From Paragonimus westermani (taxonomy: Eukaryota; Platyhelminthes; Trematoda; Plagiorchiida; Troglotrematidae): a stretch of 64,000 nt of DNA. Below are positions 18,951 to 23,723 of the stretch, piece by piece. The stretch spans positions 2,538 through 66,537 of the forward strand of contig QNGE01003278.1 of the NCBI GenBank assembly GCA_008508345.1. Direction: 5' to 3'. Both the position numbers and the translations under genes were made by a program. A model generated the notes under the pieces. That model worked only from the letters and a program-made list of their open reading frames with translations, was not told where the DNA came from and ran no database searches. How positions within the stretch are numbered: position 1 is the first letter of the stretch; each line of letters opens with the position of its first letter.

Positions 18951-18955
18951 ATGAC
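18951..18955. repeat. Target-site duplication ATGAC (left)
   Basis: The five bases directly outside the left LTR are ATGAC, repeated exactly at 23724-23728 outside the right LTR. Five-base duplications are typical of LTR retrotransposon integration. Confidence 0.85.
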
Positions 18956-19192
18956 TGTTGTATCTGTATCCGATCCCCATCCTCTACATGCCTTACGGAC
19001 AATAACAACGCTAGTGAGAACAAGTCACTCAGTAGAAGCGCATCGTGTATTGTCGCATTTACATGCAATCGGGTCATTTTAAAGTACATGGATGAGTGAG
19101 CCGTTGGTCGTTGAGGCCGCGACCAATCAGAACACTCTTGGAGCCTTGGCACGAATGTGGGGTATGCAGGCGGCCTTGACGCCTATACAACA
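18956..19192 (-). repeat. 3' LTR of the TRIM-like element (237 bp)
   Basis: TGTTGTAT...ATACAACA. It agrees with 23451-23687 at all but about two positions over 237 bp. It lacks 36 bp that the other LTR has at its upstream end (minus-strand sense). The missing piece lies between two near-direct copies of CGCC(T/C)ATACAACA, which suggests deletion by slippage or recombination. Confidence 0.85.
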
Positions 19193-19390
19193 CCACCTCC
19201 GCCTTAGCTCGAATGGCGGTCAGAGCTATTGCGTGTGTTGTGCGTAGGACATAATGTAAATTGCAAATTGATGCAGTAATGTAGGTTAGGTAATCACATC
19301 CAGCCTCCTGTACAAACTGTTCCAAAAGACATTGAAGGAACACATCTCCTTTGACCGTTTGAACTGTATACTGCATAAGCGCATGAGCCT

Positions 19391-19463
19391 CAGCAGTAGT
19401 AGTGGTAGTTGTAGTAGTTGTTGTTGTAGTAGTAGTTGCAGTCGTAAAAGTGGATGTAGTAGT
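19391..19463. repeat. Trinucleotide microsatellite, left part (TAG/TTG/GTA)
   Basis: Imperfect run of GTA/GTT units ending GTAGTAGT directly against the ribozyme fold at 19464. With the similar run at 23167-23217 it brackets the R2-like LINE, so the LINE inserted within this repeat. Confidence 0.85.
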
Positions 19464-19541
19464 AGTCGGCGCGCTGAACCACCTCCTCGTGGTGCCGACT
19501 GGGCAGTCTTGGTGTAAGCCTTGATTGGCTAAGCGTTCAGC
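19464..19541 (+). ncRNA. HDV-like self-cleaving ribozyme at the 5' end of the R2-like LINE
   Basis: All parts of the double pseudoknot can be placed. P1: AGTCGGC (19464-19470) pairs with GCCGACT (19494-19500). P2: GCTGAA (19473-19478) pairs with TTCAGC (19536-19541). P3: CCAC (19479-19482) pairs with GTGG (19489-19492) around the loop CTCCTC. P1.1: the CC of that loop can pair with the GG of GGGCAG (19501-19506). P4 is a weak stem, CAGTC (19504-19508) with GATTG (19523-19527). The J4/2 strand GCTAAG carries the expected catalytic cytosine (19529). The CTCCTC loop and the GGGCA joining segment match the hepatitis delta ribozyme. R2 elements are known to carry such ribozymes at their 5' ends, where they release the element RNA from a co-transcript. 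Cleavage is predicted just 5' of P1, at the microsatellite border. Confidence 0.85.
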
Positions 19542-19633
19542 AACTCCAGATAGGGCCAACCACTCTACCTGGTTTTAAAGTACTGGTTACAATCGATCAA
19601 TACAATGAACTTACTGCCAGTACCTCCGTGTAG

Positions 19634-22600
19634 GCTTCTACCAGTACACAGGATAGGCGAGCGGAGTACGCCTGTTCAGAATGTGGCCGATTTTGCAAGT
19701 CGAACGCTGGCTTGTCGGCGCATACTTGTATGCATCGACGCAGGAATGATCGAGAGCAAGATGTTGACGCCCAGCATGCCACGGTCTTTGACTGCGCCGA
19801 CTGTGATCGCACCTTTTCCACCAAAATCGGTCTCAGTCAACACAGGAGGCATGTTCTTCCAGTCGAACGCAACCGTGAGAATCTCAACCACATGAAATCC
19901 GCCGGAAAAAATTGGTCTCAGCAAGAATCGGCTTCCCTTCTGAAGTGTGCCGATGAACTGGCCCCGTCGTGCCCTACTCGAAGAGATCTCCATAATCGGC
20001 TCTTGCCACTTTTCCCAGGTCGTACTCTGGAAAGCATCCGGACGCGTCTGTATGCACTGAGTTGGCAGGGGAATCCTGTTCCCATTGCCAATCCAGTCAC
20101 CGTCTCGCAGACCAACGTGACGTCTGGTACTGAGTCCCAAGCTGCTGGAAACTCCGAGTGGTTTGCCCGTTTGATCCAAACAGTGATTACCCAACTTGAG
20201 TCTAATAGCGAGGCTTCTTTACAAACCGACGGACTACTAGCTATTGCCCGCGGTCTTCAGGCAGGTATTTTCACGATGGTACAAGCTAAGTCGCTGTTGA
20301 ACATGCATGCCGCACAAGCGTTTCCGTACACCTGACGACTGACTACCCGACGACGTGCTCTCATTAATGTCGGAGCCCTCGTGACCAGCAAACAAATACG
20401 GAGAGCTAACTATGCAGCGATTCAAACGCTGTACCACCAGCGCAGGAAAGATGCTGCTTTTGCAGTTTTTTCTGGCAATTGGAGAACTGCCCACAAAATA
20501 AACCGTGGCCTTCCGGATAGTTCTAACGAATACTGATCCGAAGTACTGTCGGCTCATCCGCACCCTGATGAGCGACCGTCCCGCACGATTCTGCCTCCGG
20601 ACTGGTCATTGGTCGACCAGATCACCGGGGATGAGGTATCACGCACCTTGAAGCAAATGGGGAACATCGCTCCAGGTTTTGGACAAGCTTTTGCTCAAAA
20701 ATTTGAAGCGCATGAAAGCTGATGTCCTGGCTGGATACTTCAACCTTTTCTTTCTGACCCAAGGTTGTCCGATCAATCTGTGGCGCTCTCGTATCACGCT
20801 TGTTCCGAAAGTTAATAATCCTTCATCTCCAACCGAGCTCAGATCAATCGCCGTATCTTCAACGTTGATTCGTTGTTTTCATAAGATATTGGCTGATCGT
20901 TGGAACACGCGCTTGCATCTGCCCGCTCCTCAGTTTGCTTTCCTGCATCGTGATGGTTGCCTCGAGGCGACCTCATTGCTCCATGCGCTACTTCACAACT
21001 CATACACAACCTCTTCAAGTCTGTGTGCGGCCTTCATCGACGTGTCCAGAGCATTTGACTCCATCTCGCAGGACTCTATTATCAGATCGGCCCAAGCTTT
21101 CGGCGCCCCTCCAACTGTGACACATTACATCGCGGACTCTTATCGCAATGCTTCCGTCACGCTTGGCAGCACCGTCCTCCGGTCCCAGCGTGGCGTTCGC
21201 TAGGGTGACCCCCTGTCCCCGCTTTTGTTTATCATGGCGATGGATGAGGTGCTTGCTGTTTCTCGATCGGAGCTTGGCTACCAATTCCACGACACACTGG
21301 TCAGCGGTTTTGCCTAGGATGACGATCTGATCCTCCTGGCTGAAAACCCCACGCGACTCTGAGAAGCTTGCAGCCGCTGCTAGTGCTCTGTAATCATCCG
21401 GGCTGCAGATCAACACGCGTAAAACGAGGCTTATGGTCATTCGCGATGATCACAAACACAATGTGACTGCCATCTCCAATGAGTCTATCCAGTTCGGTCC
21501 GGATACTATCCGCTCACTAAGCGCCATTGACACGGTGACCTACCTAGGTATCCCGTTCACCTGGAAAGGTAAAGCATTCACTAATCACCGTCTGCAGCTT
21601 CGCACGATGCTGGGTGAAACGACCAGAGCGCCCTTGAAGCCGTATCAAAGCTTGGATCTGCTGAGACAGCATTTCATTTCGAAGATGAATCACTCGTTGG
21701 TACTGAGTTGAGCGCACCAGAACACGCTCAAAGCAATGGACTGTGCCATTCACTAGTTTGTTTGGCAGTGGCTGTGCCTTCCCAAGGACACACCCATCAG
21801 CTACATCCACACCTCAATTCGTTTGGGGGGTCTGGGCATCCCGAGTTTATCCACCACTATCCCCATCTCGCGCAAATCTCGACTGGAGAGACTGCTCTCT
21901 AATCAATGTCCAGTTCTGCGGAATGTGGTCAAAGACCATTCGTTTGGCCCTATCCTGAGGGAAGTAAATGTCCCGGTACGCGTCCAGGGTGTAGTGGTGA
22001 CGAGCAAGGAGGAAGCCCACTCTGCATGGTCCAATAAGCTTTATCACTCGCTTGATGGCTGTGGTCTTCGGGAAGTATCACGCTCTCCACTCTCCAATCG
22101 TTGGCTGTTCAATCCAGATCGCATCTTCCCCAGGATCTTTATTCGTGCTATCCAGCTCAGGTGTAGTCTGCTGCGGACCAAGGTCCGAAACTCACGAGGT
22201 GACCGAAGCGGCCAGTCAGTTCTCTGCCGTGGCAACTGTGGTCAACCAGAAAGCCTCGCTCATATTCTGCAATCATGCTGGATCACTCACGATGCGCGTT
22301 GTGCTCGACATAACCGCGTGGCTAAAGACCTGGCGAGACGACTGCGTAACTTGGACTATACAGTCTTCGAGGAGCTGCGAGTACCAACGGCGAGCTCGTT
22401 TATCAAACCCGATGTGATCGCGGTTCGTGGCGGCGCTGCTGTGGTGCTTGATGTCAGTATAGTGGACGACTACCGTTGCCAACTTGCCTGGACCGACAAG
22501 ACTGCGAAATACGGTACTGACTCCCATAAAGCTGCCATTTTGTCCACGCTCCATACCATGAGCTGTGAGGTGAACTCTGTCTCTCATTCACCTGTGATTA

Positions 22601-22749
22601 TTTCCTTTCGCGGAATCATGTTCCCTGCTTCATGTAGCGCTATTCTTCGACTCGGATTGCCTTCTTATGCAGTCACAGATCTATGTCTACTAACTGTTCT
22701 TGGTTCCCTGAAAACTTACGACACCTATATGCGGGGAACCTGGCGTTGA
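19634..22749 (+). pseudogene. R2-like ORF, decayed: zinc fingers, Myb, RT, endonuclease
   Basis: A finger YACSECGRFCKS...H-x3-H (19667-19735) is followed by a second, FDCADCDRTFSTKIGLSQH (about 19788-19845). A Myb-like segment has the word WSQQESASLLKCADEL (about 19914-20080). After stops at 20333 and near 20535 and frame changes come RT motifs: LVPKVNNP, FIDVSRAFDSI (motif A, 21036-21068), SQRGVR-stop-GDPLSPLLF (motif B, TAG at 21201 where CAG is expected), and GFA-stop-DDDLILLAE (motif C, TAG at 21315). The last 309 codons (21823-22749) are open. They hold the knuckle C-x3-C-x7-H-x4-C (CRGNCGQPESLAHILQSC) and KPDVIAVRGGAAVVLDVS, a PD-x12-D endonuclease core, with a downstream KTAKY. The enzyme would nick the target and prime cDNA synthesis there; this copy cannot make it. 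Confidence 0.88.
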
Positions 22750-23166
22750 CTGTTGCCACCTCCCTGACAGTCGTCTCTCTATGAAGGACATTCTGTCCCG
22801 ATGCGTGAGCCTTGACTGTAATAGCACCTTTGTGCCCTGAAGAGCCTGTGATTTTGTGGGATTTACTCTGTATAATATTTCACCTTTACCGAGTTTTATT
22901 TCTCCTATCCTGTGCCTCCACTTTTCTGCACACAGGTTGGTACACACCCGTAACTTTTTTGTTTGATGCTTGAACTATTAACGCTTGACATTCTTATGCG
23001 AGGACCTGTTGACTGTACAATGTTGCCAACTACGCAGTGCGTAACATTTGACTGTGAGCTTGTTTGTGCATACTCCCCATTCCATTTCTCTTATTTCATA
23101 TTGGTGTCGCCGCTTGTTCTTTCTTTGCAAGAAGCTGTGTAAATTGATCTTCAAAATAAACGATAT
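22750..23166 (+). other. 3' UTR of the R2-like element
   Basis: Non-coding tail from the TGA after TWR to CGATAT, with a polyadenylation-type AATAAA at 23155. R2-type RTs recognise their 3' UTR RNA, so this stretch is probably the cis signal for reverse transcription. I did not work out a fold. Confidence 0.6.
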
Positions 23167-23217
23167 AGTAGTAGTAGTTGTAGTATTAGTTGCAGTAGTA
23201 GTAGTTGTTGTTGTTGT
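23167..23217. repeat. Trinucleotide microsatellite, right part (TAG/TTG)
   Basis: AGTAGTAGTAGTTG... ending TTGTTGTTGTTGT. It abuts the R2-like 3' end. Confidence 0.85.
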
Positions 23218-23431
23218 ACAACGCATCCAATCAGTTTTGGTTAGCGTATGACAGCATCACTCCAATGTGATTCCGGAAGTTGCAGATTGTTCCGTTTAAT
23301 TGAACGAAGCAGCCCGGAACGGCCGTCAACGAATAGAATGAATCGCCAGTATCTTTCGCAAGATAGTAGAACGGTGCGGGATCGGATTAGAAGTATTGCA
23401 GATCGAACACAGCTTGAGGCCAAGGCAAGTT

Positions 23432-23449
23432 ATCCTGCCCGCGACGCCA
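23432..23449 (-). promoter_or_regulatory. Primer-binding site, complementary to a serine-type tRNA
   Basis: On the plus strand the 18 bases read ATCCTGCCCGCGACGCCA, that is a tRNA 3' end including CCA, one base from the LTR. A G before CCA is the discriminator base of eukaryotic tRNA-Ser, and ATCCTGCC resembles the T arm and acceptor of that tRNA. The tRNA identity is inferred; the position and CCA are directly visible. Confidence 0.75.
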
Positions 23450-23450
23450 C

Positions 23451-23723
23451 TGTTGTATCTGTATCCGATCCCCATCCTCTACATGCCTTACGGACAATAA
23501 CAACGCTAGTGAGAACAAGTCACTCAGTAGAAGCGCATCGTGTATTGTCGCATTTACATGCAATCGGGTCATTTTAAAGTACATGGATGAGTGAGCCGTT
23601 GGTCGTTGAGGCCGCGACCAATCAGAACACTCTTGGAGCCTTGGCACGAATGTGGGGTATGCAGGCGGCCTTTACGCCCATACAACAACAAACAGAAAAC
23701 AAGTCTTGTTCGCCTATACAACA
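23451..23723 (-). repeat. 5' LTR of the TRIM-like element (273 bp)
   Basis: Full-length partner of 18956-19192. It starts TGTTGTAT, has an internal ATACAACA at about 23680, and a final CCTATACAACA at 23714-23723, followed by the ATGAC duplication. Confidence 0.85.

Follow-up and report, generated by a model that had tools for sequence, protein, structure and literature searches.

The window, i.e. the whole analyzed stretch of 64,000 nucleotides from the trematode Paragonimus westermani, contains a 3.7 kb non-LTR retrotransposon of the R2 clade on the forward strand (19464-23165; all features described below lie on this strand). Its 5' end is formed by a 78-nt segment with the fold of an HDV-like ribozyme (19464-19541), its 3' end by a segment terminating in CTTCAAAATAAACGATA (23125-23165); other copies of the element share these termini. 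An imperfect (TAG)n/(AGT)n tract, designated repeat family D1 (19391-19463), borders it on the 5' side and a (TAG)n tract (23166-23219) on the 3' side. Further outwards lie two LTR-like repeats of 242 nt each (18954-19195 and 23449-23690), which are 98.8% identical to each other; the left one contains TGTTGTAT...ATACAACA, and these two sequences form the inner ends of the repeats.

The protein-coding part of the window copy comprises a region with two N-terminal C2H2 (CCHH) zinc fingers (19667-19860, delineated in part from an intact copy), a reverse transcriptase piece (20679-21200; RVT_1, E=7.2e-11, with matches to R2 chains) in a broken frame, and a C-terminal piece (21823-22746), delineated by the alignment of the intact copy, with the region KPDVIAV...VVLDVSIV, which we take to be the endonuclease motif. 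The window copy has kept the ribozyme fold, and its reading frame is interrupted by stop codons and frameshifts. A stop-free frame of at least 1090 amino acids is found in nine copies (from 20 long regions, of which L033 and L049 are interrupted by runs of N). Searches with an intact copy recovered both C2H2 fingers, a reverse transcriptase (E=1.3e-30) and, over residues 299-1056, the PDB chain 8gh6_A (E=1.2e-118), presumably the Bombyx R2 protein; three chains named R2 are also matched. In a tree of 37 rows, in which no R4, HERO or NeSL sequence was knowingly included, the element falls in a clade with 100/100 support together with three Clonorchis sinensis and five unnamed proteins. The nearest named proteins are those of Clonorchis sinensis R2, mostly with 54-66% identity across part of the C-terminal query. 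Unnamed relatives are at least equally close, one with 66% identity to the C-terminal query and five with 56-60% identity across 96-100% of the long one. The R2-type reverse transcriptase and C-terminal endonuclease, as judged from the PDB chains and the tree, place the element in the R2 clade, and the R2-like LINE identity proposed in the initial annotation is borne out by these features, the fingers and the clade with the Clonorchis proteins. Two CCHH fingers, as seen in the intact copy, are the mark of R2C, a group described in trematodes and in two vertebrates (PMC5035012). The nearest named family is probably R2NS-1_CSi of Clonorchis sinensis, to which the matched Clonorchis proteins would belong, judging by name and host. 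Three further proteins, 34-43% identical to the R2 protein (P0048, P0070 and P0102), are filed under the names of bacterial MAGs and might represent eukaryotic sequence in those assemblies.

The 5'-terminal fold and its conservation

Alignment to Rfam models combined with a check of the individual pairs resolves the segment 19464-19541 into a nested double pseudoknot with the helices P1, P2, P3, P1.1 and P4, which is the arrangement defining the HDV-like class and the layout of both RF00094 and RF01787. P1 comprises seven base pairs between AGTCGGC (19464-19470) and GCCGACT (19494-19500), and P2 a further seven between GCTGAAC (19473-19479) and GTTCAGC (19535-19541). P3 (ACC, 19481-19483, with GGT, 19491-19493) encloses the loop L3, TCCTCGT, as assigned from the alignments to the HDV and drz-agam-1 models. 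In P1.1 the loop residues C19485-C19486 are assigned opposite G19501-G19502, i.e. the start of the GGGCA segment (19501-19505), which supplies both the P1.1 strand and the beginning of P4; the latter (CAGTC/GATTG, with an inner GGT/GCC helix and a GTAA loop) extends over 19504-19527. The catalytic position is occupied by C19529, the first letter of CTAAG, and the letters of L3 agree with the conserved ones in the models. All 27 assigned pairs of the window copy are standard (25 Watson-Crick and two G-U), and the predicted cut lies immediately 5' of A19464. The initial annotation had claimed five placeable HDV helices, a 7-bp P1, the GGGCA segment and CTAAG starting at the catalytic C, all of which are recovered here; its six-base loop CTCCTC is replaced, the Rfam alignments favoring the above reading of P3 and L3. 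The minimum-energy fold, which is blind to pseudoknots, is only mildly better than that of shuffled sequences (z=-1.43).

The check by HDV-model score proposed in the initial annotation yields a match to the Rfam HDV model, RF00094, over 19462-19541 at 32.8 bits, which lies below the curated cut-off of 50. RF01787 (drz-agam-1; 19468-19533, 20.4 bits, cut-off 37) and RF02682 (14.8 bits, cut-off 44) likewise fall short, and no family reaches its Rfam gathering score anywhere in the window. We retain the assignment on structure, since these cut-offs delimit single Rfam families and not the structural class. The E-value of the RF00094 match, 0.0027 as computed for a search of 261 nt on both strands with 4227 families, corresponds by our own arithmetic to about 1.6e-4 for one family across the whole window and to about two chance matches in the 823-Mb genome; hence, this score alone is insufficient as proof. 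At E<=0.001 RF00094 gave no match among the 86 of 4705 genomic candidates that were scored, which is uninformative as the control genomes likewise gave 0/14. At E<=1 it finds 10 of 20 other element copies (best 36.8 bits), the remaining 10 staying outside this threshold. A descriptor of the fold free of sequence constraints matches the window at starts 19463-19465 only; as at least one match occurs in 164 of 532 shuffled windows, the sequence-free fold was dropped as evidence. Among patterns that include sequence, a 21-base core occurs at 71 places in the genome, and the core combined with GGG and GGCTAAG at 62, the reversed pattern in each case giving none. The core CCUCCUCGUGG has been quoted for two R2 elements (PMC5035012). 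RF00094 treats P2 as unpaired, and the P2 pairing thus contributes nothing to its score. What sets the fold apart from a chance match is its agreement with the consensus letters, the P2 pairing outside the score, its location at the 5' end of the element and the other copies.

A survey of 93 candidate copies, of which 87 passed the motif (L033, L059, L069, L074, L095 and L107 being dropped; L077 and L078 lie on the same contig and are identical over the 99 bases compared), recovered the P1 strand with at most two mismatches in 79 copies, the other eight having no recognizable P1. The residue equivalent to C19529 is a C in 81/87 copies and is lost in six. Across 45 distinct copies, more than half of which were found by a pattern fixing the core letters and from which rows with damaged P1 were not removed, 87.3% of the cells in P1, 97.1% in P2 and 98.5% in P3 are paired, in line with the conservation of P1-P3 that had been named as a check in the initial annotation. 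In the same 45 rows four pairs show double changes against a shuffle mean of 1.7, a count reached in 34 of 500 shuffles; covariation within the family is thus not above the shuffles and is not used as support for the helices. The family is young and its copies are too alike for covariation to furnish such proof. In four of the nine copies with an open frame (L035, L045, L047 and L048), the ribozyme has the sequence that is most frequent in the family, with all helices. One of the others, L038, has lost P1, and another, L044 (the same place as L005), has lost the catalytic C and one P1 pair. In L038, L071, L075, L117 and perhaps L072, the 5' strand of P1 is lost immediately ahead of CGCTGAAC or slightly further upstream, an approximately shared point of loss that resembles reverse transcription stopping at P1 of the ribozyme.

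TAG repeats and the surrounding LTR element

At the 5' junction the repeat tract ends at 19463 and the ribozyme begins at 19464, so that the claim of a ribozyme starting exactly at the TAG border holds. Within the 21 nt upstream of the 79 P1-keeping copies, at least two in-phase AGT units are present in 70 and at least three in 62, as against 0.55% and 0.03%, respectively, of 100,000 random window positions. Seven of the eight surveyed copies outside this set have at most one such unit. The last 19 bases of the element occur at 102 places in the genome (reversed pattern, none). Of 20 fetched 3' flanks, 12 carry two or more TAG units in phase (11 of them three or more), the other eight being out of phase, degenerate or devoid of TAG, and in some copies merely 2-3 TAG units are present on one side. 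The counts at both ends indicate that the preference for TAG is strong and not absolute. An exact 28S 20-mer has 0 matches in the assembly; in this assembly without the 20-mer, most of the copies studied are found in TAG tracts instead of the 28S location of canonical R2.

As AGT is both the repeat unit and the start of the element, most junctions are uninformative with respect to the cut. Nine of the 79 copies have at most one upstream AGT unit, and in these G at +2 and T at +3 are invariant (9/9 each), A is present at +1 in 6/9 and positions -1 to -3 are mixed; these copies were picked by resemblance to P1, a bias favoring this result. In L114 and L115 AGTCGGC directly adjoins plain non-repeat sequence. 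The conserved sequence in copies with non-repeat flanks starts at the cut predicted from the fold.

The LTR-like repeats around the window copy enclose, apart from the R2 copy, an inner part of about 550 nt that includes the TAG tract, and we read this host as a small LTR element with an internal TAG tract in which the R2 copy is nested. A 5-bp flank duplication, CGAAG, surrounds the LTR pair in L034, and none was seen around that of the window copy. Matches to the host inner part are found just upstream of L004, L007, L010, L013, L024, L025, L029 and L034, among others, and LTR matches flank the R2 copy on both sides in six cases, in the same sense in five (the window copy, L034, L043, L046 and L049) and in opposite sense in L032. 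The inner part of the host occurs at at least 41 places, 20 of which, among the matches listed and none already known to hold R2, were fetched. Five of these (L088, L094, L095, L098 and L099) have a ribozyme-bearing 5' end, and in two (L081 and L087, by eye) the TAG repeat passes into inner R2 sequence. In four (L083, L086, the latter by eye, L089 and L097) an insert-free TAG tract continues to the far flank of the host. L090 reaches the far flank late, and the other eight pass into N, remain within repeat or have different sequence. The insert-free tracts imply that the repeat preceded the insertion, and together with the repeat at 70/79 5' and 12/20 3' borders they point to insertion into pre-existing repeats.

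Known relatives, possible translation start and functional interpretation

HDV-like ribozymes of R2 elements free the element RNA and set its 5' junctions (PMC3774820). The 28S-specific R2 elements resemble the present one in the HDV-like fold at their 5' end, with a P1 of 6-7 bp and a P2 of at least 5 bp, and in release from a co-transcript (PMC3774820), which in the present case is a prediction; they sit in the 28S gene, whereas the copies examined here are mostly in TAG repeats. In the zebra finch R2 junction the 28S flank begins with TAGCC (PMC12222951), so that 28S and the TAG repeats targeted here have a TAG following the junction in common. A close parallel in setting is Dong of Bombyx mori, a member of the R4 clade, whose HDV-like ribozyme cuts at the border of a TAA repeat in vitro (PMC3774820). 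Like the present element it has such a ribozyme where a trinucleotide microsatellite meets a LINE; however, it belongs to another clade and a TAA repeat, whereas the repeat here is TAG and the protein is R2-like with two CCHH fingers and groups with trematode R2 in a tree without an R4 sequence. R2 elements with other targets include R8, R9 and the non-specific R2NS families (PMC5035012). R2NS-1_CSi, itself of the R2C group, is described as lacking target specificity (PMC5035012), as opposed to the family here with its location mostly in TAG tracts. Togen, with (TG)n targets, and microsatellite-specific HERO are also LINEs with restriction-like endonucleases and microsatellite targets (PMC4640811), but they belong to other clades, and the accessible part of their description makes no mention of a ribozyme (PMC4640811). 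In the literature searched, mostly exclusive of subscription papers, no R2-clade element in a microsatellite was found. Thus, HDV-like R2 ribozymes and the Dong ribozyme at a TAA microsatellite border are already published; within the literature searched, novelty appears to lie in an element of R2C type with TAG repeats as its target, in many cases those inside one particular small LTR element, and in an AUA at the first-Met position of its relatives. The ribozyme and the element are ordinary in type, and it is the target and setting that look new.

The AUA in question is the ATA codon at 19550-19552. In the open-frame copies the frame begins at nt 15, right after a stop within P2, and AUG is absent upstream of residue 85, which lies inside finger 1. 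Among the five closest long proteins, the first Met of three aligns with residue 25, the position of this codon, and the peptide that follows is shared as well; the fourth starts with a Met immediately ahead of finger 1, and the fifth within finger 2. The residue-25 codon is ATA in 79/87 surveyed copies and ATG in none. It is conceivable, given this shared peptide, that translation starts at or near the AUA, the first base of which is 9 nt past the last ribozyme base; the alternative is a start at residue 85 with the loss of finger 1. In six pairs drawn from four copies, the codons before the first AUG show 6-12 replacement versus 2-4 synonymous changes, and the part from the reverse transcriptase to the end 31-80 versus 30-54 in five pairs and 1 versus 1 in the sixth. 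The changes before the AUG thus show no constraint, which counts against the AUA start.

Taken together, these observations make it very probable that 19464-19541 is an HDV-like self-cleaving ribozyme forming the 5' end of an R2C-like retrotransposon of the R2 clade in a TAG microsatellite. Self-cleavage and release from a co-transcript we infer from the published R2 and Dong ribozymes (PMC3774820). The element would probably be transcribed from outside, and the ribozyme would cut between T19463 and A19464, as suggested by the fold and the agreeing starts of the copies, to give an RNA starting with AGTCGGC. Translation might then begin near the AUA behind the ribozyme. By analogy with published R2 elements, target-primed reverse transcription would begin where the target is nicked ahead of a TAG. 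The end of the cDNA, being complementary to AGT, could then pair with AGT repeats upstream, so that 5' junctions would be uniform.

Some of the same data might be read differently. The fold could be a relic of ancestral R2 that has lost self-cleavage, another promoter or processing route having taken over in this lineage. The covariation not exceeding its control, the loss of the catalytic C in six and of a recognizable P1 in eight of the 87 copies, and the damage in two of the nine open-frame copies would fit such a relic, but the four open-frame copies with the most frequent ribozyme and every helix, together with element 5' ends that coincide with the predicted cut, make it very unlikely. 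Still further from likelihood, and in our view barely credible, is that the 5' end is conserved as a transcription start or through a preference for integration at AGT and that its HDV-like pairing is a coincidence: sequence-free folds of this kind are indeed common by chance and most junctions cannot separate the element from its target, but the consensus letters of the HDV model are matched, P2 is complementary despite being unscored by RF00094, and copies with non-repeat flanks still start with AGTCGGC or nearly so. With regard to the flanks, the element might have produced the TAG units itself during reverse transcription, with no pre-existing target. The copies with just 2-3 units on one side are compatible with this, but repeats on both sides and the four insert-free tracts of the host LTR element render it very improbable.

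Starting from the preferred reading, that of a self-cleaving ribozyme on an R2C-like element inserted in TAG repeats, one might speculate on a broader scenario, which we regard as doubtful. In it an R2C element would have moved from 28S to TAG repeats while keeping the TAG adjacent to the nick, and would now reside largely in the tract of the LTR element, whose transcripts would replace those of the rDNA; the ribozyme would free the element, its AGT end would re-anneal and translation from the AUA would follow. The family itself illustrates how an R2-type element could change its address with its working cycle preserved: as the predicted RNA end equals the unit of the target repeat, one end would serve both release and joining. 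Should the AUA start and the LTR nesting prove correct, translation linked to a ribozyme and beginning at a non-AUG codon could be studied in a natural setting other than rDNA, and the family would provide an R2 protein whose target is a short trinucleotide.

Two further arrangements of copies were observed. Directly behind a full copy in L037 (5217-5358) lies an internally deleted element of about 140 nt with the ribozyme and the last bases of the R2 tail. A ribozyme-bearing SINE family was considered and rejected, as the exact pattern, which diverged relatives would escape, occurs at just two places; the full copies of the two contigs (L018 and L037) share their upstream flank, and this is hence probably one duplicated locus. 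In L016, L018/L037, L048, L052, L062, L076 and L137, a related copy ends immediately before the element starts, and in such head-to-tail arrays a cut at every 5' end would give unit-length RNA.
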